From the NCBI GenBank assembly GCA_903918755.1, contig CAIXFN010000101.1, positions 124,001 to 188,000 on the forward strand: a stretch of DNA of 64,000 nucleotides. Reading direction: 5' to 3'. Below, piece after piece: positions 41,801 to 64,000 of the stretch (positions within the stretch are counted from its first letter, which is position 1; every line of letters begins with the position of its first letter). Source of the stretch: an uncultured Pedosphaera sp. Lineage in GTDB: Bacteria; Verrucomicrobiota; Verrucomicrobiia; Limisphaerales; Pedosphaeraceae. Under the pieces are notes generated by a model, which was not told the DNA's origin, did not search any database, and was given only the letters and a program-made list of their open reading frames with translations. The position numbers were made by a program, and so were the translations under genes.

Positions 41801-44800
41801 AGCTCAATGAGATCGATACTTACAACGCCTACTACTATAACCGCTACACCGCCGAGGCGCAGTCCCTGGCCAACGCCGGTCAGCCCGATGCCGCCGCCAC
41901 ATACCAAGGCCTGGCGCAGCAGTACGCCATGACCAACGGCGTGCCGACCGCGGCCAATTCCTGCGTGCAAGGACTCTTCTTCTTCAGCGGCAACAACAAC
42001 CAGCCAACCGATCCGCTGTGGGTGAATCCGTCCACCGGAAGTTTTGTGCCGGGAGCATACAGTCCCGCGCAGGATGCCGGCGATTCCACGTTCGTTGCCC
42101 CGGGCGATCTTGATCTGGCCGGAAATCCGCGCGTTTTTGGCGCCGCGGTGGACCTGGGGGCGTACGAGGTCCAAACGGCGTCCGCGGGCGTGATAGGCAT
42201 TCTGCAAGGGCCGCAATCCGTGATTGCGACCACTCCGGGTGCGGCGAGTTTTTCGGCCGCCGTGGCGACGAACAGTTCGTTGACCAATTATGTTTGGCAG
42301 ATGAACCTCGGCGCGGGTTGGGTTGCCGTGGTCACCAACACCATTTTTACCATTTCCAACGCCGCCAATGCGACCACGCTGAAGATCAATCCGGTGGACT
42401 TGACCATGAACGCCGAGCAATTCCGGCTGGCCGCGCTCCCGATTGCTTACTCCTCTGCGCCGGCCGCGCTGACCGTGGGACCGGGACCGCTGGGCGGGAC
42501 GCCCGGGCAAACGGCCAGCACCACGGCGGTCCTGCCGCCGGGCGCGAACGCTGCGGGTTACGTCTGGCAATTCAATGCCGGTTCCGGATGGGCCGGGATT
42601 TCCAACGGGGGCAATTACGCCATTACATACTCGGGCAATTCCAGCTCTTTGACGATTCTTTCCCTGCAACCCGCCTTGAACGGGCAATATCGTTTAGCCG
42701 CCACCAACGGTTCGTTTTTCTCCGCTGCGGTCACGCTATCAACATACGTATCACCGGTGCTCTACGTCCGGTCCGAGGCGACCGGGAACGGTCTGGGAAC
42801 CAATTGGAACAACGCCTTCCCGACTCTGGGCCAGGCCCTGCGCGCGGCCGCTCCCGGTGAGCAAATTTGGGTTGCCGGGGCCACGTACACCGCGACAAAT
42901 GGACTCTGGCAGCTTCCCCCGGGCGTTCCGATTTATGGCGGCTTTGCCGGTTTCGAAACCAACCTTTCCCAGCGGCAATGGACTTCCAATCCTTCTGTCT
43001 TGGTGGCCGGATCGAATGCGCCCATACTCAGTCTCCTGGCCGCGCAGCCAACTCCCGCCAGCCTCCTGGATGGGTTTATTTTGACGGGCGGCAACGGCCT
43101 GCCCGCCTTGGTGGAGGTGGGCGGGAGCGCGACCATTCAGAACTGCACGTTTTCCAATAATGTGGCTTCGGCCGTCTCCAACGCCAACGCTTCGGTGACT
43201 TTCTCAAATTGTCTATTCCTCGCCAATCAGACGACCAATGGCGGCGGGGCGATCATGGCCTTCGGCGGCACCAACTCGCTCAACCAATGCAGGTTTCTGA
43301 CCAATACCGCGACCGGTGATGGCGGCGCGGCCTTTGCGCTGTCCGCGCGGATCAATGCTACGCAGTGCTCCTTCAGCGGCAACCGTTCGGGTGCCAACGG
43401 CGGGGCGTTGGCGTTCTCCGGCGCTTCCGCCCTCGCGAGTTTGCTGGCATCGTCGTTTGTGGGGAATTCCGCCAGCAACGGCGGTGGTATCTATGGCGAC
43501 ACCATCCTCAATTCCGGCAGCATGATCAGTTGTTTGGTGGCGGAAAATTACGCCGGCGGCGTGGGAGGCGGTATCATGTGGGGACAAATCAATGTTGCGA
43601 GCGGCATGATTCTCAACAACTGCACCGTGGCCAACAATTCTTCCGGGAGCAACGGCGGCGGACTGTGGACGGCCAAGAATACGCAGCTCCACAATTCCAT
43701 TTTTTGGGGAAACACCAGCGCCGCGGGCGACACTGTCGAGTTCCAGCAAGTTTACGGCACTAATTTTCTCTCCGACCTGGCCACCTATCCCCAAGTTGGA
43801 TTCCCGGTGCCTTACGACCTCGAATACTACAACTCGATCATCCAGGGCTTGAATATTTTCAACGCCACGCACCCCGGAGCCACCGGCCTTTATGTCCGAA
43901 GTGTTGCCAACAATTCCGGCCTGGATCCGGCTTTTGTTAATCCGGCCGCCGGTGACTTCCGGCTGCTGGCGAATTCGCCCGCGGTCAATAACGGCAGCAA
44001 TTATTGGGTCGGAACGCCCTTCGACCTGCCGGGCAATCCGCGCATCTACAACTCAACTGTGGATGTGGGTGCTTACGAGTTGCAGGTCAACCCCGCGCCT
44101 CCGCTGCTCGGTGCCGTCTTTCCCGCCTCCCAATCGGTTTGCACCGGGGCCAAGGTCAGTTTCACTTTGACGGTCACCAATGCCCTGAACATTGCCAATC
44201 TCGTCTGGGAGGTCAGTTCGGGCGGGGCTTTTTCCCCGGTTGTGCCCTCTGGCATTTACAATATCAGCACGACCGCAACGCAAGCGGTCCTCACCATCAA
44301 TCCCGTGACATTTGCCCTAAATGGCTATCAGTTCCGGTTGCGCGTGAATGGTTGGGTGTACACCACCCCGCCGGTCACTCTCTCAGTGAGTCCCCTGGCC
44401 GTCGCGTATGTCAATCCGGCCGCGACGGGCAACGGGACCGGAATCAACTGGGCCAATGCCTTCACCAATTTGCCGGCGGCCCTGACCGGCTCCGATTGTT
44501 TGCAGGTCTGGGTTACGCAAGGCGCTTACGTCATTCCCACGGGGACGAATGGCACCACTTCCTTCCGCCTGCGCCAGGGACTGGACCTGCGGGGCGGATT
44601 TGCGGGTGGCGAAACCAATCTTTCCCAGCGGGACTACGTGAATCACCCAACGGTTCTGCTGGCGACGAATGGGCAGAGTATTTTCCTCAATGACGGCACC
44701 GCCGGGACCATCGACCAGACCGCGATCTTGGATGGTTTTGTGCTTGCCGGCGCGACGATTAATCCGGCGATCATCAATCTGGATGCCAGCCCGGTGATTC

Positions 44801-47800
44801 GCAACTGCGTGTTCACGAACAATCAGGCGCGCGCCCTGCAAAACCTCGGGATCATCACCGGCTCGGACGGCACGATCAGCAATTGCCTGTTCCTCAACAA
44901 TCCGGGCGGTGGCATTCTTAATCGATTCTCCGCCCCGGCCATTGTGGCCTGTTCCTTCACCGGCAACGCCACCACGGGAGCCGGTGCTGGCATTGACAAT
45001 GAGCAAGGTTCTCCCTCCATCAGCAATTGCTTGTTCGCGCAGAATGCGGCCAGTCTGGGAGGGGGTATTTACAACCGCACGACCAACTCCGGCACGGTCC
45101 TGTTCCGCAATTCGTTTCGCAACAATTCCGCCCGGCAGGGCGGTGCGCTCTACAACACCTTCGGCAGCACGCTTTCCATCCGGGACTCGGTCCTGGGGCA
45201 AAATTATGCCTCCGTCCAGGGCGGTGCCATCTTTGATTCCGGCGCGCTGGAAATCGTGAACTGCACTGTCGCGAACAACGCGGCGGGGTATGCCGCGGGC
45301 GGTTTGTGGCTGGACAGCGGCGCGGTCTTGGCCGCGGGTAACTGCATCCTGTGGGATAACGTCGTCCACACCCCGGGCGTCGCGCCGTTGCCGGCCCAGA
45401 TCAATGGGGCGTCGCCTCCGACCGTATTGAACGGCGTATCCAATTCAATCGTCCAGGGTTGGGTGGCCGCATCGGCCGCGAATAATCTGGCGTTCGCTCC
45501 GCTCTTCCTGAATGAATCAGCCGGTGACTACCATTTGACGGCCTCCTCTCCAGCGGTCAACGCCGGCAATAGCGCACTCCTGCTGCCCGGTGAGGCCGAT
45601 TTCGACGGCAATGCGCGGTCGGCCCGGTCCAGCGTCGATCTCGGCGCTTATGAATTCCAAGGGACTCCCGCCTTGCCGGTCGATCTTTCTCTGGTTCCCC
45701 AGTCCATCACCGCCTGCGCTTCGAACACGGTGGTCTTTTCCGTGGCCGGCCCCGCCAGTCCCGCGCTCACTTTCACCTGGCAGCGACAAAACGGTGCTAT
45801 TTTTACCAATCTTGGCTCCGACAGCGTCTATTCCCTGGCCGGAACAAATGGCGCGGCCTCGCTCACCATTGCCAATGTCTCCGAAGTTTTGAATGGCTCT
45901 GTTTACAGAGTCATTATTGCGGGGAACTCCTTGTCGGCCACTTCGGCGGTCTTTACGTTGACGGTCAATCCGCGCCCGGTCATTTATGTTAATGGCCAGG
46001 CCGCGCCGGGCGGAAACGGCGCGAGTTGGGCCACGGCCTTGGCCAACCTGGCCGATGCGCTCGACCAGGGGGATTGCAGTGACATCTGGATTGCCGGTGG
46101 CACCTATGCGCCGACCAACGCAACTCCGCTGGCGTTGACGAGCGGCGCGCGCCTGTTCGGCGGCTTTGCCGGAACGGAAACCCTGCTGGCCCAGCGCAAC
46201 CCGGTTGCCCACCCCACAGTTTTAATCGGTGCGGCCGGGACAACGGCGCTGCAGGGACTCGGCACGGGGGTTCCGATTGATAATTCCACCGTGCTCGACG
46301 GCCTGACCATTGCGGGCAGCAGCAACGCGCCGGCGGTGCTGCTCTCCGGTGCCAGCCCGCTACTGCGCAACTGTGTGTTCACCGGCAACTTTGCAGGCGC
46401 GGTTTTGGCGCAGGCGGGCGCGCGGCCGTCATTTGTCAACTGTGTCTTTAAGAACAACACGGGTTCCTCGGCCGTTTCGGCGCAGAATGCCGGTTTGTCG
46501 TTCGTTGGCTGTCTTTTCGCCGGCAATCAGGCGCCGAATGGTCAGAGTGGCGGCGCGATCTCGGCCACCGCGGCTTCCACCATCTCCCTGGCGCAATGTG
46601 CCTTTTCCAACAATGTGGCGGGGGACAACGGAGGCGCGCTTTTCCTGGACACCTCGTCGGGCGCGATCACGAATTCGCTGCTGCACGATAATGTCGCGAG
46701 TGCGGGCGCGGGCGGCGCCATTTATGGCCTCAACGCTTCTTTGTCGCTGATCAATGATACCGTGGCGAACAATCAAGCGCCCACCGTTGCCGGCATTTGG
46801 ATTCAGGGCGCCGCCGGGATCACCAATTGCATTCTCTGGAACAATGGTACCACGGAAGGTTCGCAGCTCTCCGGCAGCGTGGCGGTGGCGTATTCTGATA
46901 TCGAAGGACTGAATCTCTTTGCGGGTAACCAGAACATTTCCGCCGATCCGCTTTTCACAAACCCCGCAGGCGGCCTGTTTACGCTGCAAAGCAATTCGCC
47001 TGGTATCGATGCCGGCGATAATGCCGCGATCAGCACCAGTACTGATTTGGCGGGGAATGCTCGCTTGCAGGGTTATTCCAGCGACATGGGGGCATACGAG
47101 GCCGCCGGATTCGGCAGCTACATCCAGGTCATCCGGCAACCGCTTTCACAAACCGGTTGTGTGGGTGGCAGCGTCTCCTTCACCGCGGTAGGCCCGCTCA
47201 ATTTTGGCAGCAATTTTAACTGGCAGGTTAACACCGGTTCCGGTTTTGTGCCCCTGGTCCCGGGTCCCAACTATTCGATCATCACGAACCGGAATGCTTC
47301 CGAGTTGGTGGTCAGCGGCCTGAACCTCAGTTTAAGCGGCCGGCAATTTCGGGCGCAGATTGCCGATTTCGGGATTTATTCCAGTGCGGCGAGTTTGACG
47401 GTTCGGACGCCGGGAGTTTTGTATGTCAACGCCGCGGTTGGCGCCAATGGTTCCGGAGCCAGTTGGGCGCAGGCTTTCAAGAGCCTTGACGCCGCCCTGG
47501 CGGTGGCGAGCGTTTGCGACCAGGTTTGGGTCGCCGCCGGCACCTACGCTTCGAGCAACCCGGCCGGCGGTCCGGGGTTTGCCTTCGCCACCGGCACCTC
47601 CGTTTATGGTGGCTTTGCGGGGACGGAAACCGATCTGTCCCAGCGAAACCGGGCCGGCCACCCAACCGTACTGACCAGCGCCGGTCAGCGCAATGTGCTG
47701 AGCTTCTCGACGGGCGGCGTGCTGGATGGCTTCACCATCACAGCATCCCCCGGTGCCGGCGGCATTTTCATCCAGCACGCCAATCCCAGCCTACAAAATT

Positions 47801-50508
47801 GCACCTTTGCCTCCAATTCGGCTCCCGCTCTGGTCAATTCCGGCGGCGCGCCCAGCTTTCAAAATTGCTCCTTTGAATTCAACACGGCCACCCCGCTGGT
47901 CAATCTAGCCAACGGTTCGGCGGCACTCGCTAACTGCGTGTTTGCGACCAACCACGTCGGGGGCCCGGGCGGAGCGATCCTGAATCAAGGCGCGAATCTG
48001 TCGGTCACACAAAGTTCGTTTATCGGGAACCGTGCCACCCAGGGCGGCGCAATTTGCAACTTGTCCAATTGTCCCGTGGTCTTGCTGGATCACTGCGTCT
48101 TTGGCGCGAATACCGCTACCCGCGAAGGCGGGGCGGTTTTCGGCGACCAGGGAGTTGGGCTTTCGGTCGGCAACTGCCTGCTTTACCAGAACTCGGCCGT
48201 CAACGGTGGCGCGCTGGCCAACTATGGACAATTGACGGTGCTCAGTTCCACGTTCGCCGGCAACCAGGCCGCATACCTGGGTGGCGCGTGCTATGGCCCG
48301 CAGGGCGGGGGCCAGTTGACCAATTCCATCTTGTGGGGGGACCTTCCCTCCGAGTTGCAAGGCTCGGTCGCCGCCGCTTATTGCATCATCCAGGGAAACA
48401 CCGATGGCAGTACCGGCAATTCGGGTTTTGATCCCCAATTTCAAAATCCGGAGGGTAACGATTACCATCTGCATCAGTATTCGCCCGCCATTTCCAGCGG
48501 CTCGCTGCCGGAGGCCGCGGGGATCGCCACCGACCTGGATGGCAATCCGCGGGAGGCGGCGTGGGGACTGGATCTCGGCGCCTATCAGAGCATAGCGGGG
48601 CCGTTGGATACCGTTTACCTCACCATGGAACCAAGGCTGCCGCCCGTTTGCGGCAATCAATCCACGGTCCAAATCACCTTCGCGTCCCCCAATCCTGATA
48701 ACTATGCCTGGCAATTGACTACGCCTTATTTGCAGATGATCACCGACGGTTTCCGAGGCGGCGCCGGCGAAGTCTATTCCATCAGTGGTTCAACCCTGAC
48801 CATCAACAACGTCAACCCAGGCATGAATGGTTTTCAATACCAGCTCTACGACGTCAATACTTACGACTATATGTCTCCCGTGCTGACCCTAACCTTCCTG
48901 CCGTCGGGGCCGATCTATGTCAATGCGGCGGCCTCGCCGGGCGGCGATGGCGGTAGTTGGGGCAGCGCGTTGCTGGATCTGACCTCCGCCCTTAATGCCG
49001 CCAGCGACTGTCAGAATGTCATTTGGGTCGCGGCGGGCACCTACTATTCCCCGGCCGGCGCCAACTCCAGCATGGTCGTTCCTTCCCTCCCGGGCGGCCT
49101 GAAGATTTATGGCGGGTTCGACGGTTCTGAAACGGACCTTTCCCAACGCCATTGGGCGGCCAATCCCAGTTTTCTAACCGGCTCCAACACCGCGGCTGTT
49201 GTCACTTTCAACGGATCGGCGGGGCTAATCGACACCAATACGGTGTTGGACGGCTTCACCATCACGGGCAGCGGCACCGGCATCAATATCACGCTGGCCA
49301 GTCCCCGGATCATCAATTGCACCCTTGCTTCCAATTTGCTCGGAGGCGTCCAGGTTGGCGGTGGCAGTCCGGTTTTTGTCAATGATCAGTTCCTGGTCAA
49401 TGCCGCTGCGACGGGCGGTGGCTTGAACGTCAGCAGCAATCTTGAACCTTCAGCGGTCATGGTGCGGGCCTGCGTCTTTCGCGGGAACACTTCCGCCACC
49501 GGCGCGGCCATCTATGCCCGCAATGCCGCGCTGACAGTGGCGGACACCCTCCTGAGTGGTAATGCCGGCACCGCCCTGATCTTCAGCAACAGTTCCGCCA
49601 CGCTGATCAATGACACCGTGACCGCCAACGAAGCCGGCCTCATCGCCACCGCCGCCCCGGTGCAAATCTTCAACAGCATATTCTGGAACAACGGCGCTTC
49701 GGGAACGAACGTCGAGCTAACGCAATTGTCCGGCGCCGTCACCGTCGCCAATTCCTGCGTCCAAGGACTCAGTGTCTACTCCGGTTCCGGCAACATCGGA
49801 TTCGACCCCCTGTTTCGTGCGCCGACACAACCGTCCAACGCCCCAACCCTCGGCGGCAATTTTCATCTCTTCGCTTCTTCACCCGCCTTGCGCGCTGGCA
49901 ATCCCGGGGTGGACGCTGCGCTCCTCCTTGATCTGGACGGAAATCCGCGGCTCAGCAATCTTGGGGACGTGGACATGGGCGCGTACGAATTCCCGGGAGT
50001 TCCAATGACACCGCTGATTGTCTCCAACCTGCCGCCTTCCCTCAACGCGTCCATCGGGACTTCCTTGACCGTGGCTGCCGCCGCATCGGGTGGCGGCCTG
50101 AGCTACCAATGGCAGGGCAACTTTGGCCTGGGCTGGATTGCCCTGGGCAACGGTGGGGTATACAGCGGTGTTGCGACCCCTTCGCTCACCCTCCTCAACG
50201 TGACCGCCAACCTCGCCAATGCGCAGTACCGAATCCTGGTCTCCGATGCAACCGGAGCCAGTACCGTTTCCTCCGCAACGACGCTGCTGCTGACCCAACC
50301 CATGATTACCAGTTTCGGTCTGACCGCCGATCACACTTTCCAAATGAGCATCACCGGTTCCGGCAGCACCTATACCATGTTGGTCTCCGCGGATTTGGTG
50401 CACTGGTCCGTGCTGGGACCTTTTGTTCCGCAAGGCAACAACTCGTTTGGCTTTACCGACACCAATGCCCCCTCCCAAATTCGGTTCTATCGCGTTCGCT
50501 CACCTTGA
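32896..50508 (+). CDS. 5870-aa exported mosaic of beta-helix and Ig-like modules
   Basis: A signal peptide (about 1-23, LILLWVLNLPGFSQA) is followed by eleven modules. They start near residues 24, 812, 1236, 1659, 2181, 2655, 3288, 3836, 4362, 4840 and 5339. Each opens with a YVN/YVR...GSSWxNAF-type segment, then VWVAAGTY, GGFAGxExxLSQR, many right-handed beta-helix rungs (NCxFxxNSAxxGGA), and closes DPLFxNPxxGxFxL...DLxGNPRxxxGxVDLGAYE. An Ig-like domain of about 90 residues (LQWQVNxGxG) follows most modules, and module 4 is followed by two. The C-terminal 70 residues form a W-S-V...RFYRV domain shared with two other proteins here. There is no catalytic signature, sortase motif or PEP-CTERM. 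It is probably a secreted or surface-bound adhesin or polysaccharide-binding fibre (inference). Confidence 0.9.
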   Translation: MKNRLSAGLILLWVLNLPGFSQAAQIVFVNQTAPPGSTQSGASWANAYRELRDALPQATGSASSNNPVEIWVAAGTYKPTAGIIRSSSFALPGYTTIRGGFAGTESSPGQRSASGSWTVLSGDIGSADANGITSANIGAILTGAAPAPNLSATNVTAGFNDNCYNVVTCLGVDNAVLDNLVITGGNANNLDVQGSVRYTSGNLEAMTMLDFGTDANPSHDGHPAMQPDPVVVGGGIFVTNRHSRPSGQMTLTVTNCVLLHNLAANFGGGLGAYEANLKVTGCAFLNNFATWEGGAFAGVNTLCAFQSCTFAKNSALTAGGAVCFMTLPSVNNLPNAAQITDPDAVLKAVAAGLQVVVSAGKYAYALYSQATEGSLYNLAKPAINQPADLSTDLALDGLADAYAEVGLAFAIGNFAIDLAVALGGDPNSPAIKNWIAADNFFNQYLTPLGILELLSSATGGSLGTVFHQPSPEDQQNQYAQAQLVNFNAAAYSTMRDCSFTGNNCSGIGGAGYVVYDNVEFNRCWFLTNNAGTVAGGLALIGWNTPRVFDSAFSGNTCQSGCSALLCSFHDRAQILNTTFVGNTSAKSGSCLQVELGAAAKLFNSLVWGNSAGQMTNAAAQIYVATGDNLSGNLRDDYNNAGPGKGDYVATLDLRFSTVQDFDNLPHGFDQYEYYSWNAAAAEIFNATQAFQQADDNGVADLAGYGNLGEGIRPGAFVILAGNGNPYNYYYNNGIRPLLVGKGGVVPLGASRDLYSQRLASQILWGSSSAHSPFIDIFGQGVGVTGALQRGCAQFQGPRQQGLRDSNGAPYAIYHVRAGAPANGDGLAWGTAFSSLAPLLPGDDTVAPLPVWVAGGSYDISGSAIPAAEFHGGFAGTETNLSQRNPLSSPTLLAGGLICPGDVLFDGLVFTNYHSADYPLISAAEGGSVATITNCTFVNNSGAYAGAIYWSGSLYLFNSRFVGNASPSAGGAVNADNCTAINCWFENNSSGYEGGAIFGNNNITAINCVFAGNHAPEGGAITGNGISNQWQLYNDTFYGNGPAAVVINGSYNPNSPLQGVTGPAPVPVNCLFWGNASDGVTAQGYDPLFLNPPADNFQLSPNSAAIGQGTTNGLPASFPTKDLAGNPRIVNGRLDLGALAFQTPHGLFTEISVNGATQFFSAFAAGTTFGGLQWQTFTNGAWANLVNGSNYAGVNSTQLVVTPTAALYGSQYRVTGTTNGAPFQSVPVGLVSSVPSGLLYVRQGATGSGDGSSWQNAFPSMQSLFTYAGDTPVQVWVAKGAYTGTGQGNAGIQLYGGFAGNEVDLSQRNWSNNSTLFTGQIEARGDFLLDGFIVTNCHSSSYGAIYNLAGSATIKNSLFINNSAAYGGPIDWQGSVTVSNSQFIGNSTGNNGGAISGNEVTALNCIFLSNHADFAGGAIWCVDYVAAVNGIFAGNTSPQGAAIFGNQTPPAAWHLYHDTFYGNGAATLAIAGSYDPRYPLLGFLGPLPVPSNCLFWGNLSDGVAAQGYDPLFLNPAAGNFTLSASSPAIGSATTNGLPANFPTIDLAGNPRIINGRLDLGALEFQSPTGLSTIITLSGGSQDFSVQLAGQAAPTSLQWQILTNGSWVNLASNSLYQGVNSLDLLIANPPASLYGGQYRLSGIGAGVPTTPVELSSPTPSGVYFVRQGATGSGDGSSWQNAFTNLASLLNGAGNLPVQVWVAAGSYTGIGQANAGIQVYGGFAGNEVVLSQRQWTNHPTLFTGSIQARGDFLMDGLVITNCSSYFGAIYNSGGGSATINNCRFVNNSATLYSAVNWHQGFLTVSNSQFFANSDPVFGENLLAVNSGFSGNTGHAIFVNNAASVINCVFAGNLAGQGSSIYNDGQGGCQLYNDTFYGNGPLTVYSNFAGTTAVNCLFWNDVSDGLPAQVFPGYSSDPLFLNAAGGNFQLNAFSLAVGAGTTNGLPATFPAVDAAGHPRIVNGRIDLGAYEFQGTPLVPPALATQTSAGYRNGLYGPYYTFSVALGTNAPLASLQWQVNAGNGTWLNLTNGAQYQGATSLQLSVFNPDATLNQRQYRLTGIAANGAFFQLAPATLQLQNFTSSYSANQTVQGGLSPGGQWGPIYVVTTTLGTNAVGAVLQWQVNGGNGIWSNVVNGTLYQGATNSQLTIGNPGASLAGYQYRLTGTAAPGAFVLPAVTIAPNFPRVIYVDGSHGYPYYTNWVATHGVPPKYDGLGWSTAYPTLHDAFAVAQPGAEIWVRAGAYFPLRRLPTDPNALPASLSLARGVRVLGGFLGTETNDSQRNAGVNLTILSGSSAAPGDDPTLSAYNYAASPSIFVNGPGITNDSVLDGVTLTAATGGAIVNLGGSPVVQNCLFVSNSAPVGAAMANWSNASPLLINCTLFANSANEGPLYFNGASGTLENCLLFRNTSFQEGGALYASNAVVSLLNTAVLFNSTAGTAGGIFTGGGSNSIINSILWGNSGAQAGGSGSIAAAYSCIQGGGTTNHNLAVDPIFVLPASNNFQLSAFSPLLNAGGSAAAAAVAVDLNGNPRTSSGLVDIGPYQHQLSPAIALAVTSLPYSLTVTNLGIYSFVISGTPGTFTNLQWQVNSGSGFAAVTNTTLLNYGTTAAGNSASLNLFFTNAATASTAYNALNGAQYRFIVPGLNFTSPPAVLLVQLPVPLFVNSQAQGATHDGLTWATAFTNLAPALAAATPNVSQLWVAAGTYALPATAIDAALYGGFAGNETALSQRNWSNNITVITPTNGNLSGTLDGVQVRGSSSSPSSIAINNASPLIQNCVFSGGNTQVALNLGHPTIANCVFSNAADGINITAGSPNIVDCRFGAVLTNAVLAGAGGTLISNCTFASTSTGVLVAGAGAGATISRSLFSSNNLACVVDGPGGAVTVKDCFFVSNSCNSIIHNGSLGATMAVLNCTLANNRQPDGAITALGESDATGLQVRNCILWNNYSTNWNAYVVSNPSIFAGPVAAAFANGELNEIDTYNAYYYNRYTAEAQSLANAGQPDAAATYQGLAQQYAMTNGVPTAANSCVQGLFFFSGNNNQPTDPLWVNPSTGSFVPGAYSPAQDAGDSTFVAPGDLDLAGNPRVFGAAVDLGAYEVQTASAGVIGILQGPQSVIATTPGAASFSAAVATNSSLTNYVWQMNLGAGWVAVVTNTIFTISNAANATTLKINPVDLTMNAEQFRLAALPIAYSSAPAALTVGPGPLGGTPGQTASTTAVLPPGANAAGYVWQFNAGSGWAGISNGGNYAITYSGNSSSLTILSLQPALNGQYRLAATNGSFFSAAVTLSTYVSPVLYVRSEATGNGLGTNWNNAFPTLGQALRAAAPGEQIWVAGATYTATNGLWQLPPGVPIYGGFAGFETNLSQRQWTSNPSVLVAGSNAPILSLLAAQPTPASLLDGFILTGGNGLPALVEVGGSATIQNCTFSNNVASAVSNANASVTFSNCLFLANQTTNGGGAIMAFGGTNSLNQCRFLTNTATGDGGAAFALSARINATQCSFSGNRSGANGGALAFSGASALASLLASSFVGNSASNGGGIYGDTILNSGSMISCLVAENYAGGVGGGIMWGQINVASGMILNNCTVANNSSGSNGGGLWTAKNTQLHNSIFWGNTSAAGDTVEFQQVYGTNFLSDLATYPQVGFPVPYDLEYYNSIIQGLNIFNATHPGATGLYVRSVANNSGLDPAFVNPAAGDFRLLANSPAVNNGSNYWVGTPFDLPGNPRIYNSTVDVGAYELQVNPAPPLLGAVFPASQSVCTGAKVSFTLTVTNALNIANLVWEVSSGGAFSPVVPSGIYNISTTATQAVLTINPVTFALNGYQFRLRVNGWVYTTPPVTLSVSPLAVAYVNPAATGNGTGINWANAFTNLPAALTGSDCLQVWVTQGAYVIPTGTNGTTSFRLRQGLDLRGGFAGGETNLSQRDYVNHPTVLLATNGQSIFLNDGTAGTIDQTAILDGFVLAGATINPAIINLDASPVIRNCVFTNNQARALQNLGIITGSDGTISNCLFLNNPGGGILNRFSAPAIVACSFTGNATTGAGAGIDNEQGSPSISNCLFAQNAASLGGGIYNRTTNSGTVLFRNSFRNNSARQGGALYNTFGSTLSIRDSVLGQNYASVQGGAIFDSGALEIVNCTVANNAAGYAAGGLWLDSGAVLAAGNCILWDNVVHTPGVAPLPAQINGASPPTVLNGVSNSIVQGWVAASAANNLAFAPLFLNESAGDYHLTASSPAVNAGNSALLLPGEADFDGNARSARSSVDLGAYEFQGTPALPVDLSLVPQSITACASNTVVFSVAGPASPALTFTWQRQNGAIFTNLGSDSVYSLAGTNGAASLTIANVSEVLNGSVYRVIIAGNSLSATSAVFTLTVNPRPVIYVNGQAAPGGNGASWATALANLADALDQGDCSDIWIAGGTYAPTNATPLALTSGARLFGGFAGTETLLAQRNPVAHPTVLIGAAGTTALQGLGTGVPIDNSTVLDGLTIAGSSNAPAVLLSGASPLLRNCVFTGNFAGAVLAQAGARPSFVNCVFKNNTGSSAVSAQNAGLSFVGCLFAGNQAPNGQSGGAISATAASTISLAQCAFSNNVAGDNGGALFLDTSSGAITNSLLHDNVASAGAGGAIYGLNASLSLINDTVANNQAPTVAGIWIQGAAGITNCILWNNGTTEGSQLSGSVAVAYSDIEGLNLFAGNQNISADPLFTNPAGGLFTLQSNSPGIDAGDNAAISTSTDLAGNARLQGYSSDMGAYEAAGFGSYIQVIRQPLSQTGCVGGSVSFTAVGPLNFGSNFNWQVNTGSGFVPLVPGPNYSIITNRNASELVVSGLNLSLSGRQFRAQIADFGIYSSAASLTVRTPGVLYVNAAVGANGSGASWAQAFKSLDAALAVASVCDQVWVAAGTYASSNPAGGPGFAFATGTSVYGGFAGTETDLSQRNRAGHPTVLTSAGQRNVLSFSTGGVLDGFTITASPGAGGIFIQHANPSLQNCTFASNSAPALVNSGGAPSFQNCSFEFNTATPLVNLANGSAALANCVFATNHVGGPGGAILNQGANLSVTQSSFIGNRATQGGAICNLSNCPVVLLDHCVFGANTATREGGAVFGDQGVGLSVGNCLLYQNSAVNGGALANYGQLTVLSSTFAGNQAAYLGGACYGPQGGGQLTNSILWGDLPSELQGSVAAAYCIIQGNTDGSTGNSGFDPQFQNPEGNDYHLHQYSPAISSGSLPEAAGIATDLDGNPREAAWGLDLGAYQSIAGPLDTVYLTMEPRLPPVCGNQSTVQITFASPNPDNYAWQLTTPYLQMITDGFRGGAGEVYSISGSTLTINNVNPGMNGFQYQLYDVNTYDYMSPVLTLTFLPSGPIYVNAAASPGGDGGSWGSALLDLTSALNAASDCQNVIWVAAGTYYSPAGANSSMVVPSLPGGLKIYGGFDGSETDLSQRHWAANPSFLTGSNTAAVVTFNGSAGLIDTNTVLDGFTITGSGTGINITLASPRIINCTLASNLLGGVQVGGGSPVFVNDQFLVNAAATGGGLNVSSNLEPSAVMVRACVFRGNTSATGAAIYARNAALTVADTLLSGNAGTALIFSNSSATLINDTVTANEAGLIATAAPVQIFNSIFWNNGASGTNVELTQLSGAVTVANSCVQGLSVYSGSGNIGFDPLFRAPTQPSNAPTLGGNFHLFASSPALRAGNPGVDAALLLDLDGNPRLSNLGDVDMGAYEFPGVPMTPLIVSNLPPSLNASIGTSLTVAAAASGGGLSYQWQGNFGLGWIALGNGGVYSGVATPSLTLLNVTANLANAQYRILVSDATGASTVSSATTLLLTQPMITSFGLTADHTFQMSITGSGSTYTMLVSADLVHWSVLGPFVPQGNNSFGFTDTNAPSQIRFYRVRSP
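33849..33856 (+). repeat. G8 homopolymer in the giant gene
   Basis: Eight consecutive G within codons for TAGGAV, about residue 320. Slippage by one base would truncate the protein. Confidence 0.8.
34161..34168 (+). repeat. second G8 homopolymer in the giant gene
   Basis: Eight consecutive G within codons for ALGGDP, about residue 423. It lies 312 bases after the first tract, on the far side of most of a helical insertion in module 1. Confidence 0.8.
35325..38813 (+). repeat. three recent tandem module copies in the giant gene
   Basis: Modules 2, 3 and 4 recur with a period close to 1270 bases. They share near-identical blocks: RQGATGSGDGSSWQNAF in 3 and 4, GGFAGNEV-LSQR, QLYNDTFYGNG, CLFWGNxSDGVxAQGYDPLFLNP and TTNGLPAxFPxxDLAGNPRI. 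They are much closer to each other than to the other eight modules. Confidence 0.8.
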
Positions 50509-55978: not shown

Positions 55979-57097
55979 CTACCAAGGCTTCTGCTCATTC
56001 AGGGCCTTGACGATGACGGGCTTGAGGGCAAGGGGATCGATGCGGTCAAACTGGCGAAATAATACTTTCCCATCAGGGGAGAGCAGGATGGTATAGGGAA
56101 TCTGACCTTGCCAGTCGGGGTCGAAGGCGTCGATTAGTTTGTCCCGGTTTTCCGAGGCAAACAGCAGATTCTCACCGGAAGATTGACGTTTTTGCAGGAA
56201 GGCCAGAACCTGCTTTTGTTCGTCGGGATCATTAAGCGCCACCGTGATTAACTCAAAATCGCGCTGGCGGTACATGCGGTTGATCGTGACGAACTCGGGA
56301 AACTCCGCGACACAGGGGGCGCACCACGTCGCCCAGAAATTGATCAACCGGAATTTGCCGGAATCATTTTTACGCAAGGCCTTCAGCCGCTCCGCGTCCG
56401 CCAGTTGGACAGTTACGGGTTCGGCGGCCAGTATTTCCACGTGTGCCCGGGCGGATTCTTCTTTCGCGGCCCATTTTACAGAACAGCCGACGATCTTGGT
56501 TTTCGTCACCGCTGGTTCGCGACCGGCGAGGAGGGCGTCGATTACCTCCCGCGCGTAGCGCTGTTTCACATTCTTGATGCGTTCGGCATCATCGAAGGCA
56601 CCTTGGTAGCGCAACTTGCGAGCGGCATCGAAAATAAAGACATGCGGGGTGGCCACCGGCCCATAGGCGTGGGCTACGGACTCCGTTTCGCCATCGTACA
56701 AATAAGGGAAATTGAATTGGCGATCCCGGGCGCGGAATTTCATCTCCGGGAAAGTGTCACCCAAATCGGTATAACCCAACTCGTCCAGACGTACGGATTT
56801 GGGATCGTTGGGCATGATTGCAACCACCGCGACTCCTTGCGGAGTGTAGTCAGTCACGAGGGCTTTGATGCGCTCTTCATAATACTGGGCACTGGGGCAA
56901 TGGTTGCAGGTGAAAATGACCACCAAGACCTTCGCGGCGGCGTATTCCTTGAGGGAGTGGGTTTGATCATCCACTCCGGGCAGTTGGAAATCCGGCGCGG
57001 GAGAACCCAAGGACAGCGGGACGGGTTGGAAATCCGCGGCGAGAGCGGGGCGCAAAAACGCGCCGAGAACGAGCAAGAGCAGTGCGGCACGGTTCAT
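55979..57097 (-). CDS. exported tandem-thioredoxin (redoxin + TlpA-like) protein
   Basis: 372 aa from the ATG at 57097, with a signal peptide (about 1-21, LLLLVLGAFLRPALA). The first domain (about 28-190) is peroxiredoxin/redoxin-like, with APDFQLPGVDDQTHSLKEY and the motif FTCNHCPSA (Cys64, Cys67). The second (about 225-372) is TlpA/ResA-like with FWATWCAPCVAEFP (Cys258, Cys261) and the cis-Pro region QIPYTILLSPDG. A further Cys, in VGCSVKW, lies in the linker. The fusion could pass electrons between the two CxxC sites. It is downstream of the Gfo/Idh/MocA gene but separated by a strong terminator, so it is probably transcribed from its own promoter. Confidence 0.88.
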   Translation of the reverse strand: MNRAALLLLVLGAFLRPALAADFQPVPLSLGSPAPDFQLPGVDDQTHSLKEYAAAKVLVVIFTCNHCPSAQYYEERIKALVTDYTPQGVAVVAIMPNDPKSVRLDELGYTDLGDTFPEMKFRARDRQFNFPYLYDGETESVAHAYGPVATPHVFIFDAARKLRYQGAFDDAERIKNVKQRYAREVIDALLAGREPAVTKTKIVGCSVKWAAKEESARAHVEILAAEPVTVQLADAERLKALRKNDSGKFRLINFWATWCAPCVAEFPEFVTINRMYRQRDFELITVALNDPDEQKQVLAFLQKRQSSGENLLFASENRDKLIDAFDPDWQGQIPYTILLSPDGKVLFRQFDRIDPLALKPVIVKALNEQKPW

Positions 57098-57181
57098 GGA
57101 GGAAAAGTAGACGGAGCGGGGGAAACCGGCAAGCCCGGACTCCGGTGGCAGATTCAACACTTTGGGAAGGCCCTGGTTAAC

Positions 57182-57214
57182 AAAAAACCGCGGTTGGCTT
57201 TGGGCCAACCGCGG
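57182..57214 (-). terminator. strong rho-independent terminator
   Basis: On the minus strand CCGCGGTTGG, a 7-base loop, CCAACCGCGG (perfect 10-bp stem) and TTTTTTG. It lies 35 bases past the stop codon of the Gfo/Idh/MocA gene. Confidence 0.9.
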
Positions 57215-58823: not shown

Positions 58824-59687
58824 CTATGGGGACAACGGGCGAATCGCCAGCACCCGGTAGAAACGGGTGGGCGCAGCGCTTTCGTTGAAGGTCCGGGCGG
58901 TCAGGGCACCGTCGGGAAAGATTAATCCCAAGGGGCTGTCGGCCCACGCAGCACCCGCCAGATCGGTGGTATCCTGCAGCCGGTAAAAACGGTTCGGCAC
59001 GCTGGTCCAGGCCAGGCTGGCACTGGTGCCGTCGGGGGTGGGAGAGAAGTTGACAATCCGGAGGAAATCCCCGGGATCGCGGGGATTGGTGCCCGCGAGG
59101 TATTCGGCATAATTCGTGACCCCGTCGCCATCAGCGTCGCCGTTTGGATCCACGTTGGTCATGCCGAAGTACAGCAACTCCCAGGCGAGGGGCAGGCCGT
59201 TGGCATCCAGAATTCCCGGGAAAAGGGTGTCGGTTTGGATCCGGGCCACGGCATTGCTGAGACTGATCCAGCCGCAATTGGCACTCCACACATTGCCACT
59301 GAAAAGGCCGGTGGCCAGGTCGAAGCGGGGGGCTCCGGTGGCCTCAAAATTCAACCAGCCGATGTTGGCGCCCCAGGCATAGCCGCGCAAATTGCCCACG
59401 CCATCCTGGTTGACGCCGAAATCGGAGGCGTCCAAATTCTGGTATTGGATGCCGTTGGTGGGGGAGCCGCTGCCCAAATTGATCCAGCCCACGTTGGCGG
59501 AATAGAGAAAACCGGAACAGACGTAATCCCCGATCACGGCACCGTTGGTGCCATCGGCGCGGGCATCCACCCAGCCGATGTTGGCGCCATAGGCGAACCG
59601 GTTGGTGAGGTTGATCGTCGAGTCGGCGGAGGTGGACCAGCCCAGGCTGATGAAGCACGCAACGAGTATGGCCGCCGGAATTCTCAT
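58824..59687 (-). CDS. small secreted protein with ANxGW repeats and FYRV C-terminus
   Basis: 287 aa from the ATG at 59687, which overlaps the stop of the Cys-rich gene as ATGA. A signal peptide (about 1-21, IPAAILVACFISLGWSTSA) is followed by four copies of an [AS]N-x-GW unit: YGANIGWVDA, YSANVGWINL, WGANIGWLNF and WSANCGWISL (about 30-150). A calcium-binding-like segment DPNGDADGDGVTNYAEYL (about 190-207) follows. The C-terminal domain (about 220-287, RFYRLQDTTDL...RFYRVLA) is of the type found in the giant and 961-aa proteins. There is no enzyme signature. Translational coupling to the Cys-rich protein suggests the two work together at the surface. Confidence 0.8.
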   Translation of the reverse strand: MRIPAAILVACFISLGWSTSADSTINLTNRFAYGANIGWVDARADGTNGAVIGDYVCSGFLYSANVGWINLGSGSPTNGIQYQNLDASDFGVNQDGVGNLRGYAWGANIGWLNFEATGAPRFDLATGLFSGNVWSANCGWISLSNAVARIQTDTLFPGILDANGLPLAWELLYFGMTNVDPNGDADGDGVTNYAEYLAGTNPRDPGDFLRIVNFSPTPDGTSASLAWTSVPNRFYRLQDTTDLAGAAWADSPLGLIFPDGALTARTFNESAAPTRFYRVLAIRPLSP

Positions 59688-61825
59688 CCGCACCTTCCCG
59701 AGGTGCATATGCCACTCGCACACTGGATGCCAACCGTGCATACCTGCCCGCTTTTCAATTTGCAAATGCCACCCGCACAAGTGTTGGTGGAAGAGCAAAC
59801 CGTGCCGCAGTGCCCGCAATTATTAGAGTCTGTGTTGATATTTACTTCGCAACCGTCAAGGGCGTTGCCGTTGCAGTCGGCGAAACCCGCATTGCAGGCG
59901 CCGGTGACGCAAGATCCCGAACTGCAGGCGGGGGTGCCGTTGGGCGTGATGCAGACCCGGCCGCAAGCGCCACAATTGTTGGGATCGACGGCGGTGCGCG
60001 TTTCGCAACCGTTGCTGGGATTGCCATCACAGTCGGCGAATCCCGCATTGCAGGAGGCCGTGACGCAAGCGCCGGCGGTGCAGGCGGGGGTGCCGTTGGG
60101 CGTGGCGCAGACCCGGCCACAAGTGCCGCAATTGTTCACATCCGTGGCGGTGCGCACTTCGCAGCCATCGCTGGGATTCCCATTACAGTCGGCGAAACCC
60201 GCATTGCAGGAGGCGGTGACGCAAAGGCCGGAAGTGCAGGCGGGGGTGCCGTTGGGCGTGGTGCAGCGTTTGCCGCAGGTCCCGCAATTGTTCACATCCG
60301 CGGTGGTGCGCACTTCGCAGCCATCGGCAGGATTCCCATTACAATCGGCGAAACCAAAGTTGCAGGCGGCGATCACGCAAGCGCCCGCGGTGCAGGCCGG
60401 GGTGCCATTGGGCGTGGAGCAAGCCCGACCGCAGGCCCCGCAATTGTTTGGATCCGTGGTGGTGTGCGTCTCGCAGCCGTTGCCGGCATTGCCATCGCAG
60501 TCGGCGAAACCCGTATTGCAGGAAGCAGTGACGCACGCGCCGGCGGTGCAGGCGGGTGTGCCATTGGGCGTAATGCAGGCGCGGCCGCAGGCCCCGCAAT
60601 TGTTCAGGTCCGTGGCGGTGCGCGTTTCGCAACCGTCCAAGGGATTGCTATTACAGTCCGCAAAACCTGCATTGCAGGCGGCAATCACGCAGGATCCCGA
60701 GAAACACCCCGGTATGGAGTTGGGCCGCGTGGGGCAAACGACGCCGCAGCCACCGCAGTTATTTTGGTCAATCTGGGTGTTGATTTCGCAGCCATTCCCG
60801 GGATTTCGATCGCAATCGGCGAAGCCGGAATTGCAAGCCGCGATCACACAGGCACCCGCAGCGCAGCCGGGAGTTGCGTTGGCGGTGGTACACACCGTTC
60901 CGCAAGCCCCGCAATTACTGACGTCGGTCGCCAGCGCTTTGCAAATCCCATCGCCACAAAAACTCTGTCCGGGAGGACAGGCGGAAGAGAAATTCGCCCA
61001 GGCCGAGGCGTTGGCGAAGCCGGCTCCCGGGGCCACCACCAATTGACCGTAACTGCTGCCCGGGGCGATATCGTAGTCCGTAAAAGTGTTGAACGCCGCG
61101 TTATTGCGGATGATCAAGTTGGCGCCAGCGTCCACCCGGATGCCGCGGCCGGAGTTGGCGGTGAGATGGTTCCCATCAATGCGGTTGCCGGTCCCGAGGG
61201 CGTGGATGCCGGCATCCGTGGCGCTGGTGCCGTTGGTGCTGCAGGCGTTGTTCTGGACGAAGCATTGGGAGTCCACGACAATGCCGTCGCTTCCATTCGC
61301 GGTCACCAGGCAATCCGCCACCACGCTATTGAAGCCGACCGCCAATCCCGCGCCGGCATTCCGGGTGGCGAGCAAATGTTCTGCGCGGACGCCCGTTGCT
61401 CCCAGCGCGGCCACTCCGGCAAGACCCCAGCCTCGCAAGACTCCATTAATCAAAACGATATTCTGCAGGTTGGTGTTGACGGCGATTCCGGCCCCGGATC
61501 CTGCGGCGCCCAGCAGAGTGAAGCCGTTCAAGTCCACGGTCACGTTATCGACTTGAATTATGATTCCCGATTGTCCGGGACTGCCGGTAAGATTGGCGGC
61601 AAGGTAAAACGAACCGGCGTTGGTGATAGTGAAGGGCAGGGTGGAAATCAACGTTCGTGGCTCCACTTGAGCCAAGGTTTTCATGGATGGGCCCGGGGCT
61701 CCTGGAGGGGTCAGGCTGCCCTGGCCGAAGGTCAAGCCGCTGGCGGCAAAAAATAAAAGTAAACCAAGACCCCAGATCCGAAGCTGGAGATCCTTGGTCA
61801 ACCCCATTTTCGCAATGGCACGCAT
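59684..61825 (-). CDS. secreted cysteine-rich repeat protein with beta-helix N-terminus
   Basis: 713 aa from the ATG at 61825 (an in-frame ATG at 61807 is the alternative). A signal peptide (about 13-38) leads to a small beta-helix region (about 60-270) with VDLNGFTLLG, IVLINGVLRGWG and NRIDGNHLTANSGRGIRV, like NosD-type parallel-helix repeats. Residues 301-665 are seven tandem repeats of 52-53 residues, each with eight cysteines in the pattern NCGxCGxxC...C...C...C...C...GCE. An eighth, altered repeat ends the protein. About 70 cysteines in all imply heavy disulfide bonding. Similar Cys-rich repeats occur in large myxobacterial secreted proteins (family recollection). Upstream genes encode likely disulfide machinery; the downstream gene overlaps by ATGA. 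Confidence 0.85.
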   Translation of the reverse strand: MRAIAKMGLTKDLQLRIWGLGLLLFFAASGLTFGQGSLTPPGAPGPSMKTLAQVEPRTLISTLPFTITNAGSFYLAANLTGSPGQSGIIIQVDNVTVDLNGFTLLGAAGSGAGIAVNTNLQNIVLINGVLRGWGLAGVAALGATGVRAEHLLATRNAGAGLAVGFNSVVADCLVTANGSDGIVVDSQCFVQNNACSTNGTSATDAGIHALGTGNRIDGNHLTANSGRGIRVDAGANLIIRNNAAFNTFTDYDIAPGSSYGQLVVAPGAGFANASAWANFSSACPPGQSFCGDGICKALATDVSNCGACGTVCTTANATPGCAAGACVIAACNSGFADCDRNPGNGCEINTQIDQNNCGGCGVVCPTRPNSIPGCFSGSCVIAACNAGFADCNSNPLDGCETRTATDLNNCGACGRACITPNGTPACTAGACVTASCNTGFADCDGNAGNGCETHTTTDPNNCGACGRACSTPNGTPACTAGACVIAACNFGFADCNGNPADGCEVRTTADVNNCGTCGKRCTTPNGTPACTSGLCVTASCNAGFADCNGNPSDGCEVRTATDVNNCGTCGRVCATPNGTPACTAGACVTASCNAGFADCDGNPSNGCETRTAVDPNNCGACGRVCITPNGTPACSSGSCVTGACNAGFADCNGNALDGCEVNINTDSNNCGHCGTVCSSTNTCAGGICKLKSGQVCTVGIQCASGICTSGRCG
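59831..60925 (-). repeat. seven tandem 156-bp repeats encoding the Cys-rich units
   Basis: Each unit is 156 bases (159 in the second, which codes one extra residue). Copies 3 to 7 are highly alike at the DNA level, sharing blocks such as NCGACGR, TPNGTPAC and GFADC with few silent differences. Copies 1, 2 and 8 are more diverged. This fits recent internal expansion by unequal recombination. Confidence 0.9.
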
Positions 61826-61906
61826 CGTTTTTTCAGTAGCAAAATGGCGGCTGGATGGCAAGCGCAAAGTTGTCCGCATCCACCCCAAAACGTGCGCCAG
61901 AGCCGG

Positions 61907-62389
61907 TTAATCGGTGGCGGGATTTTCCGTCCGAACCGGTCCCCGAAAAAGATAAACCGCCACGATCCCCAGCAAGCTGGCCCGGACAAACGCAAACCCG
62001 GGGGATTGGAGCCAATGCACACCGGCGCCCTTGGGATCACCGCCCAGTCCCAGCCAATCGAGGTTGAGGCAACCGCAGGAAATTTCAAGACCCCGGCCCC
62101 AGGCCTGACCGGTGGCCAGGACGAAAACCCCGCAGAGTAACACGGTCCAGGCCAGGGCGGCCCGCAACCAGACGCCACTCAACAAGGCCAGACCGCAGCA
62201 GAGTTCCAACCAGGGGAGCACCACCGCGGTGAGGCGCAGCAGACCGGCCGGCAGGGGCAATTGATATGCCACCAAGTGGCTGAAAAAATCCTGGGGATTG
62301 GCTAATTTTGACAGGGCAGCCCAAAGGAAAATGATCGCCAGCAACCCGCGGAGCAGGTGGCGGCGGTTGAGTTCCAGGGTGATTTTCAT
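61907..62389 (-). CDS. MauE/DoxX-like membrane protein
   Basis: 160 aa from the ATG at 62389, which overlaps the stop of the rhodanese gene as ATGA. Four membrane helices: about 12-28 (HLLRGLLAIIFLWAALSKL), 45-66, 70-92 and 128-148. The start LLRGLLAIIFLWAALSKLANP and the mid-membrane LPWLELCCGLALL fit the MauE/DoxX family. A Cys pair (LELCC) and CGC in LEISCGCLNLD could be redox-active. MauE works with the thioredoxin-like MauD in forming the many disulfides of methylamine dehydrogenase, so this protein is a good candidate electron-transfer partner for the DsbA-like protein encoded upstream. That role is inferred from family and context. Confidence 0.82.
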   Translation of the reverse strand: MKITLELNRRHLLRGLLAIIFLWAALSKLANPQDFFSHLVAYQLPLPAGLLRLTAVVLPWLELCCGLALLSGVWLRAALAWTVLLCGVFVLATGQAWGRGLEISCGCLNLDWLGLGGDPKGAGVHWLQSPGFAFVRASLLGIVAVYLFRGPVRTENPATD

Positions 62390-63057
62390 CGGGCGCCTCC
62401 GGGGGCTGCCTGGGATTCGACCTGCCGGTATTCCACGAACCCGCCCGGCATTTCCCGGATATTGGTGTAGCCATACTGGCTCATCAGCAGACTCACGAGT
62501 TGGTTGGACAGGGGACACGAAGCCGAACCGCAGTAAACCACGAACGGTGTGGCTTTGGGATATTTGGCAGCGAAGGCCGCGAAATCCGCCGGACTGCTCG
62601 CCGCGGGAAGGGATATCGCGCCGGGAATGTGCTCGGTCTGGTAATACGCGGCGGCCCGGGCATCCACCAAAACGATTTGGCCGGTGGCCAGGAGTTGGCG
62701 GGTCTCGGGCCAGGTCAGGCTGGGGACTGACGGGACCACGCTCGGGGCCGGGGCGATTGCGGGCGCGGCCACCGGGGCGACGGCCGCGGCGCGAGCGGCG
62801 GTGGGAGATTCCGCTTCCAAGCTGAGACCCAGGGTTTCGTTGTTATACAGGGGGACAGGACCACGAGGGGACGTGGGCCCTTGATTGGCGGCCGGATTGG
62901 CGCTCGCGGCGGTGTCTTTGGCAGGCAGGCTCCAGCGGACCCCCAGAGGGTTCATGGTGTTGAAGGCCAAACCAAGTAACAGCGCCACCACCAGCATCGC
63001 GCCCATGCGGGCGGCGGTGGGGGGCGTTTCGGGAACCGTGGAATCAAGCGGGTTCAT
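62386..63057 (-). CDS. membrane-anchored rhodanese-like domain protein
   Basis: 223 aa from the ATG at 63057. An N-terminal anchor (about 18-34, GAMLVVALLLGLAFNTM) and an Ala/Pro-rich linker (about 45-110) lead to a C-terminal rhodanese domain (about 115-210): WPETRQLLATGQIVLVDARAAAYY, HIPGAISLP, then the active-site loop VVYCGSASCPLSNQLV with the expected catalytic Cys, and GYTNIREMPGGFVEY. The catalytic domain is probably periplasmic. Rhodaneses move sulfane sulfur or act as redox modules. The gene is 25 bases after the DsbA-like gene and overlaps the MauE-like gene, so it belongs to the same thiol-chemistry unit. Confidence 0.88.
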   Translation of the reverse strand: MNPLDSTVPETPPTAARMGAMLVVALLLGLAFNTMNPLGVRWSLPAKDTAASANPAANQGPTSPRGPVPLYNNETLGLSLEAESPTAARAAAVAPVAAPAIAPAPSVVPSVPSLTWPETRQLLATGQIVLVDARAAAYYQTEHIPGAISLPAASSPADFAAFAAKYPKATPFVVYCGSASCPLSNQLVSLLMSQYGYTNIREMPGGFVEYRQVESQAAPGGAR

Positions 63058-63082
63058 GAAAAGGGAGGAATTGGCTTGCCGG

Positions 63083-64000
63083 TTACCTGGCCGCCAGCAG
63101 CTTCTGAATTTCGGCCGCAAAAACGTTCACCGGCTGCGTGCCCACAATGATCAAGCCCCGGACATGGTCTCCCTCCGGCTTGCCAACGACAAAACTGGGA
63201 GTTCCGGAGATACCGACCGCTTCGGCCTCTTGACTGTCCTTTTTCAAGGCTGCCTCGAAGCCCTTGGCGTCCAGGCATGCCTGGAATTTCGGCAGGTCAA
63301 GGGTTGCGGCGGTAGCGGCAAGGAGAATATTGGTGGCGGTTAATTCGCTGCTGTGGGCGAAGAGCTTCTCGCGCATGGCCCAGTATTTGTCCTGCTGGTT
63401 GGCGCAGGCGGCGGCCAGCGCGGCGGGACCGGCGTTGGGATGGAAGGGGAGGGGAAGGTTACGGCTGATGATTCGCAACTTGCCCGTATCCACAAACTGC
63501 CGGACCAATTCAGGCATGATGGATTCGTGAAATTTCTTGCAGAAGGGACACTGGTAATCGGTGAATTCCACCAATACCACCGGGGCATCGGCCCGGCCCA
63601 TTACCGGACCGGCCAGGGTCACGGTGCCATATGTCGGAGGCTCCGGCGCCGGCGTGGGCGCGGCAGCGCGATTGGGTTGCGTTAACGCGATGCGCAGTTC
63701 ACGCAGTTCCTGCAGGATGGCGTCCGTTTGGTTGCCCGTGAGGGGACGTTTGCCACTCTCCGCCAGACTGGCCAGGAGCGGATCCAGGGGGACATCGTCA
63801 CCCGCCCGCTGCCAGCCATGGCGGGCATCATTGAACCAAACTTTCAGGCGGGGATGGGATAAACGCTGCAAGCCGCCCAAACCCAGGGGTGGCATCCCGC
63901 TGCCGGTTTGACCCAGGCGCACGGAATAGGCGCCTCCCTGGGCGGATAGCCGGAGTGCGTTGGCAGGGATGTTGGTGGATCCGGCGAATGGAAAATCGCC
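63083..64000 (-). CDS. DsbA-like thioredoxin protein, 5' end beyond window edge
   Basis: At least 305 codons are open to base 64000 with no stop, so the start lies beyond the window; an internal GTG at 63922 should not be taken as the start. The visible N-terminal part (about 90 residues, with RLKVWFNDARHGWQ) is a separate region of unknown function. A short helical linker (TDAILQELRELRIAL) follows. The last 190 residues are a DsbA-family thioredoxin domain: VVLVEFTDYQCPFCKKFHESI with the CPFC active site, RNLPLPFHPNAGPAALAAACA, and the cis-Pro loop GISGTPSFVVG. It would oxidise or isomerise disulfides in the periplasm. It leads the rhodanese, MauE-like and Cys-rich genes. Confidence 0.88.
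   Translation of the reverse strand, partial: GDFPFAGSTNIPANALRLSAQGGAYSVRLGQTGSGMPPLGLGGLQRLSHPRLKVWFNDARHGWQRAGDDVPLDPLLASLAESGKRPLTGNQTDAILQELRELRIALTQPNRAAAPTPAPEPPTYGTVTLAGPVMGRADAPVVLVEFTDYQCPFCKKFHESIMPELVRQFVDTGKLRIISRNLPLPFHPNAGPAALAAACANQQDKYWAMREKLFAHSSELTATNILLAATAATLDLPKFQACLDAKGFEAALKKDSQEAEAVGISGTPSFVVGKPEGDHVRGLIIVGTQPVNVFAAEIQKLLAAR

Follow-up and report, generated by a model that had tools for sequence, protein, structure and literature searches.

In the DsbL/DsbI system, a DsbA-like oxidase and its DsbB-like partner are encoded beside an arylsulfate sulfotransferase. Passages in two papers (PMC7794033, PMC2474590) speculate that MauE helps to form the disulfides of methylamine dehydrogenase, a secreted substrate with many disulfides, and, according to parts of two others, the periplasmic rhodanese PspE together with DsbC partly replaces DsbA/DsbB in E. 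coli (PMC3733917, PMC5403849). In the open-access literature we found no paper that joins MauE with a rhodanese and disulfides, none that joins MauE with DoxX and DsbA, and none that covers MXAN_6577.

The locus described here contains members of these families side by side; it lies at the end of a 64,000-nucleotide stretch of DNA (the window) from an uncultured Pedosphaera sp. whose genome is G000 in the comparisons below. Its five minus-strand genes encode, in order, a DsbA-like, a rhodanese, a MauE/DoxX-like, a Cys-rich and an ANxGW protein; the first three are called the trio. What the initial annotation had given for this row (order, strand, both ATGA overlaps and the CPFC and CGSASC motifs) was all confirmed in the sequence. 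The features are:

63083 to 64186 (window edge at 64000), minus strand: DsbA-like oxidase with a fused N-terminal beta domain, 367 aa (contig sequence, PF13462)
63539 to 63550, minus strand: CPFC active site of the DsbA domain (sequence)
62386 to 63057, minus strand: rhodanese-domain protein with a putative membrane anchor, 223 aa (PF00581)
62515 to 62532, minus strand: rhodanese loop CGSASC, of the CX4C type (sequence, alignment)
61907 to 62389, minus strand: MauE/DoxX-family membrane protein, 160 aa (PF07291)
62069 to 62077, minus strand: CGC motif of MauE (alignment)
59684 to 61825, minus strand: Cys-rich secreted protein, 713 aa, 71 Cys (ORF, NF041328)
59687 to 60916, minus strand: Cys-rich tail, eight NCGxCG units of 52-53 aa (sequence)
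58824 to 59687, minus strand: ANxGW secreted protein, 287 aa (ORF)

The DsbA stop and the rhodanese ATG are 25 bp apart, the rhodanese and MauE genes overlap by ATGA (62386-62389), as do the Cys-rich and ANxGW genes (59684-59687), and 81 bp separate the MauE stop from the chosen ATG of the Cys-rich gene at 61825 (an alternative in-frame ATG lies at 61879). The DsbA-like gene extends 186 bp beyond the window, its start being 64186 in window numbering (L002 1083-2186), and the window contains the C-terminal 305 of its 367 aa. The initial annotation was right about CPFC in this truncated copy and missed the N-terminal domain; its estimate of about 70 cysteines in eight tandem units agrees with the counts, while the ANxGW protein, at 287 aa, is not the small protein it had been called.

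How does this arrangement compare with the described ones? It resembles DsbL/DsbI in that a DsbA-like oxidase and a membrane partner lie beside one secreted protein, whose role as substrate we infer. There are two differences: (i), the partner in DsbL/DsbI is DsbB-like, whereas here it is a MauE/DoxX-like protein plus a rhodanese, in a genome without a DsbB match; (ii), the presumed substrate here has 53-79 cysteines. As in MauD/MauE, a MauE-family membrane protein is tied to a Cys-rich secreted protein. Unlike in MauD/MauE, its partners are a rhodanese and a DsbA-like protein that carries a fused beta domain, and methylamine dehydrogenase genes (mauA/mauB) were not seen by eye beside the trio. 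The rhodanese, like PspE, would act in the envelope; PspE supports disulfide formation, as the present protein may, and has one cysteine, whereas the rhodanese found here has an invariant CX4C pair and is encoded with MauE and, at trio loci, with the Cys-rich gene. Lastly, the NCGxC repeat of MXAN_6577-like/STIG1-like proteins (NF041328, PF04885) is common to the window protein and its paralogue C28, but here the repeats sit on a beta-helix carrier, and the tails at two further loci (G555, G556) are of other repeat kinds.

We think that the locus is probably a dedicated oxidative-folding cassette, in which a MauE-rhodanese membrane unit stands in for DsbB/VKOR. The secreted DsbA fusion would insert disulfides into the many Cys-rich units that make up the tail of the beta-helix protein encoded next to it; MauE and the anchored CX4C rhodanese would accept the electrons from DsbA and hand them on to an acceptor such as the quinone pool, as DsbB/VKOR do elsewhere. 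Rhodanese and MauE would form the more general membrane unit, and its specialised addition would consist of the DsbA fusion with the Cys-rich and ANxGW proteins. The direction of electron flow, the order of the relay and the substrate are what we infer.

The DsbA fusion is laid out as a beta domain (residues about 24-130), a linker helix (135-169) and a DsbA domain (186-365). The latter belongs to the DsbA family (108 bits to PF13462; PF13462 and PF01323 both above cut-off), with a GTP (cis-Pro) motif that is invariant, like the CxxC pair, in all five aligned fusions. The best Foldseek matches of its AlphaFold model (pLDDT 89.2) were DsbA/BdbD structures, ScsC structures also being present, and both sequence and fold comparisons put the DsbA domain nearest to BdbD and Corynebacterium DsbA. 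Matches to the DsbA domain filled the Foldseek list for the whole model, none of them placing the N-terminal domain. That domain (motif NYQGRV) is common in the order, where it starts many long ORFs (matches to query residues about 20-140). The idea that it serves for docking, with N-terminal domain and beta-helix carrier as general neighbours, found no support: among the loci compared, only L010 had both outside the trio loci, 4.7 kb apart.

The second protein is a rhodanese-domain protein by profile (PF00581, 57.7 bits against a cut-off of 22.2), with an N-terminal hydrophobic stretch, seen by eye, as putative anchor. The usual active loop of rhodaneses is CRxGxR, whereas the window rhodanese has CX4C, and these are the sole conserved cysteines of the MauE-linked rhodaneses. 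An invariant cysteine pair is in fact present in each trio protein: CxxC in 5/5 fusions, CX4C in 24/24 rhodaneses and CGC, with both cysteines, in 25/25 aligned MauE proteins. A selenoprotein rhodanese with a UxxxxU motif is listed in part of PMC13188914, which suggests that the CX4C pair is a redox site. MauE itself is a member of PF07291 (72.6 bits against 27); the family matches of the window protein are PF07291 and DoxX only, which leaves it outside the DsbB and VKOR profiles. Its model (pLDDT 87.2) is mainly helical and gave no PDB match in Foldseek at E 0.001 or better; by fold comparison the best Z was 12.5, to NACHO/TMEM35A, and the values for DsbB (6.1) and VKOR-like (5.9) are within helical-bundle noise.

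The window genome has no match to PF02600 or PF07884 in a Pfam search that divergent DsbB/VKOR in draft genomes may escape, and the MauE of the trio is the sole MauE above the Pfam cut-off there. Across 11 genomes, the profiles detected no DsbB and a single VKOR (G556), profile controls being matched in 6/14 and 3/14; VKOR is present in some other Verrucomicrobia according to part of PMC4555120. This absence of a separate known oxidase (DsbB missing in 11/11, VKOR in 10/11) bears on a reading in which the pathway runs the other way: MauE and the rhodanese would bring electrons in, and the DsbA-like protein would be a reductase or isomerase correcting tail disulfides. Substrates with many cysteines require such correction, DsbD systems import electrons and some ScsC proteins shuffle disulfides, so that the ScsC structures among the fold matches of the fusion would fit, as would a weak match of the rhodanese to the model of TsoB, a rhodanese/DsbD-fusion-like selenoprotein (E 9.8e-5, far below cut-off). 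The best matches in both sequence and fold are nevertheless BdbD and DsbA, which are oxidases, and we consider a reducing or shuffling pathway unlikely. The isomerising activity proposed in the initial annotation finds no support either, the closest solved relatives of the DsbA-like protein being DsbA/BdbD.

Is the trio really tied to the Cys-rich protein? We queried 245 genomes of the order with the DsbA fusion, MauE, the beta-helix carrier and the NF041328 family. The top MauE group comprises 20 loci in 19 of these genomes (E 3.2e-20 or better); together with two loci from a species-wide scan and three picked from many weaker matches, 25 MauE loci were read, and a rhodanese adjoins MauE at 24 of them. 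Rhodanese and MauE thus pair generally in the order and are not private to the cassette; it is the DsbA fusion alone that accompanies the Cys-rich gene. Other arrangements of the pair were also seen. At L103 (5356-7414), L104 (3024-4926) and L105 (1287-3243), which represent a more distant arrangement, a DUF1573-like gene (by eye) is followed by rhodanese and MauE. At L097 (2272-7769) and L100 (601-5913), a rhodanese with two CX4C loops and MauE precede a protein (about 1250 aa, 44-45 cysteines) that is a possible second substrate class.

The DsbA fusion itself is much rarer. Among the 245 genomes it was near full length in G000, G073, G103 and G227 and, across two contig pieces, in G173. The best 80 matches from a scan of 84,980 named species genomes include G103 and G173 (G073 and G227 are not among them) and two further MAGs, labelled Akkermansiaceae: L149 (G555) and L151/L152 (G556). 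A class-wide search of 384 genomes, in which at most the best five candidates were scored in each, gave the full-length fusion in G000 and G073 only. At 11 lower-ranked relatives from other phyla (L153-L162, L166), the DsbA part was matched and no rhodanese/MauE pair was seen by eye among genes called with a window-trained caller.

Seven loci (G000, G073, G103, G173, G227, G555, G556) have the full DsbA-rhodanese-MauE trio, and six of them have, no more than about 2.5 kb from MauE, both an ANxGW gene and one for a beta-helix protein rich in cysteine (at least 8% Cys). The contig of G173 contains just a tail fragment of the latter (174 aa, 28 cysteines), with one unrelated gene in between; the exception, G227, has a trio without a Cys-rich neighbour, the adjoining fragment having 2.4% Cys where the contig ends. 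At the 18 other MauE loci, some on short contigs, no neighbour with at least 8% Cys was found up to 5 kb away, or up to the contig end where that comes first; G164, G035 and G081 are MauE loci without the trio near large proteins with 44-57 cysteines (2.9-3.6%). For the 20 order-sample loci, a Cys-rich neighbour is present at 4/5 trio and 0/15 other loci (hypergeometric 0.001, a value overstated by relatedness). The initial annotation had named trios that usually lie away from Cys-rich repeat genes as grounds for giving up its proposal, and the opposite was found. Its proposal holds in outline, with a specific tie for the full trio (6/7 loci) and with rhodanese and MauE as a general pair (24/25 loci).

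The same strand and five-gene order are kept in G000, G103, G555 and G556 (with a contig break inside DsbA in G556), whereas the Cys-rich/ANxGW pair faces the trio in convergent orientation in G073 and G173, so adjacency outlives breakup of the operon. Co-transcription is consequently no requirement. A site scan found no promoter- or terminator-like site in the gap 61826-61906; across the window region, terminator-like sites are at background (7 against 6.7 expected). The corresponding gap has no terminator-like site in L149 (G555) and L152 (G556), but in G103 it has three where 0.7 are expected, and the coding strand carries two of these, so that the expectation of a clear gap held at three loci and failed at one. 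An operon was discarded as the main evidence, given the convergent genes in two genomes and the terminator-like sites in G103.

It could be argued that the genes are neighbours by descent, the trio having been placed once beside the Cys-rich pair and serving envelope proteins in general. A single change on the rhodanese+MauE tree is indeed enough for the Cys-rich association, which means one origin and not repeated gains; moreover, the trio of G227 is without the partner and the C28 partner in the window genome is without the trio. Adjacency nevertheless persists down to 46% DsbA identity, over an inversion and over replacement of the Cys repeats, and Cys-rich genes are otherwise rare in the stretches that were read: among 314 called genes of at least 150 aa in 37 stretches, five have at least 6% Cys, namely four trio neighbours and one paralogue taken for its similarity. 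Joint absence points the same way. G124 and G143, of the same family, share with G103 an upstream flanking gene (60% identity), and at this place they have rhodanese-MauE alone, with no NF041328 match and no full-length fusion match in either genome (8 of 13 candidates scored in G143). G159, from the window's own genus, gave no match to the DsbA fusion, MauE, the beta-helix carrier or NF041328. Relatedness does not explain well the adjacency after inversion, the tail replacement and the joint absence in G124/G143, and we give descent as the sole reason little credit. The gene-level link between the trio and the Cys-rich protein is well supported.

The Cys-rich protein of the window is a composite. 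Its N-terminal half is a beta-helix (PF13229, 24.6 bits, slightly below the cut-off of 25.9; the partners in G103, G555 and G556 are above it), and its tail contains the eight NCGxCG units, which recur every 52 or 53 aa (156/159 nt in the DNA) and have 8 cysteines each, the last one 9. The protein belongs to NF041328 by the curated cut-off (106.6 bits against 100). Two relatives are found elsewhere in the window genome. C28, a beta-helix protein with 87 cysteines and the NCGxC repeat, has no trio beside it, and for this reason the trio may also act in trans. C14 (L012 5817-8064) is a beta-helix protein with 10 cysteines, followed by an ANxGW gene; since this pair has neither trio nor Cys tail, the pairing of beta-helix and ANxGW is independent of the trio, with the Cys-rich tail as an extra on the beta-helix carrier. 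At six trio loci an ANxGW gene is next to the Cys-rich gene, the other five proteins being 54-60% identical to that of the window.

The five complete Cys-rich trio neighbours have 53-79 cysteines each (whole-protein figures were used for G000, the C28 paralogue, G173 and G556). The number of NCGxC units in them varies from 8 in G000, 4 in G073 and 6 in G103 to none in G555 and G556, whose tails match DUF4215, Cu-binding_MopE and Dicty_CTDC motifs, with EGF in addition in G555. The NCGxCGxxC repeat, put forward earlier as the co-occurring feature, was rejected as a conserved property of the partner, two trio loci being without any. In agreement, the sample-wide search for Cys-rich repeats, which covered the NF041328 family, gave matches at E 0.001 in 5/245 order genomes (G000, G073, G103, G173 and, weakly at 4.9e-4, G077), G000 alone passing the cut-off. 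The beta-helix carrier is present in 43/245 order genomes; beta-helix ORFs with at least 53 cysteines occur only in trio genomes and the richest elsewhere has 20, as judged by the best match in 26 of the 38 genomes that have a carrier match but no trio. Going by the predicted proteins, cysteine-richness on the beta-helix carrier is kept and repeat type is not.

The copper-binding motif in two of these tails raises the question of metal handling, in which Cys-rich or MopE-like tails would bind copper or another metal and MauE/DoxX and its partners would load or mature them. A weak match of MauE to the model of HvfX, from copper-RiPP maturation (E 4.7e-4, 20.3 bits against 80), would go along with this. 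The tails mainly resemble STIG1-, EGF- and DUF4215-type repeats, however, which are thought to be disulfide-bonded, and by eye no metal transporter was seen among the called neighbours. We find this reading very improbable.

Some other genes of the region deserve mention. About 1.6 kb downstream of the cassette, past a Gfo/Idh-type gene, the minus strand of the window (55979-57208) encodes a tandem AhpC/TSA and thioredoxin-like protein with CNHC and CAPC motifs; relatives of it are absent from the genes of the other compared loci. The plus strand at 32896-50508 is taken up by one ORF of 5870 aa with 81 cysteines (about 1.4%). At L002 12063-15832, two adjoining genes each appear to be half methyltransferase-like and half ATP-grasp-like (translation, by eye).

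Returning to the oxidative-folding cassette, a broader proposal is that a CX4C rhodanese and MauE make up an undescribed disulfide generator, widespread in the order, that replaces DsbB/VKOR and that in this lineage is coupled, by the fusion of DsbA with a surface-protein domain, to a single family of beta-helix surface proteins with exchangeable Cys-rich tails of any kind; this we advance only tentatively. The locus bears on how disulfides form outside the cell in bacteria without a recognisable DsbB or VKOR. A MauE-rhodanese pair with invariant cysteine pairs, beside a protein with 71 cysteines, makes MauE-type proteins testable as disulfide generators, and the cassette is a possible tool for producing Cys-rich proteins. 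In a few uncultured Verrucomicrobia the trio proteins, which probably make disulfide bonds, are found together with a secreted protein of 53 to 79 cysteines; this suggests a folding line reserved for a single surface protein, with an unusual membrane partner instead of DsbB/VKOR. Such a line would show that a folding machine is co-inherited with cysteine-richness itself, and not with a particular repeat.
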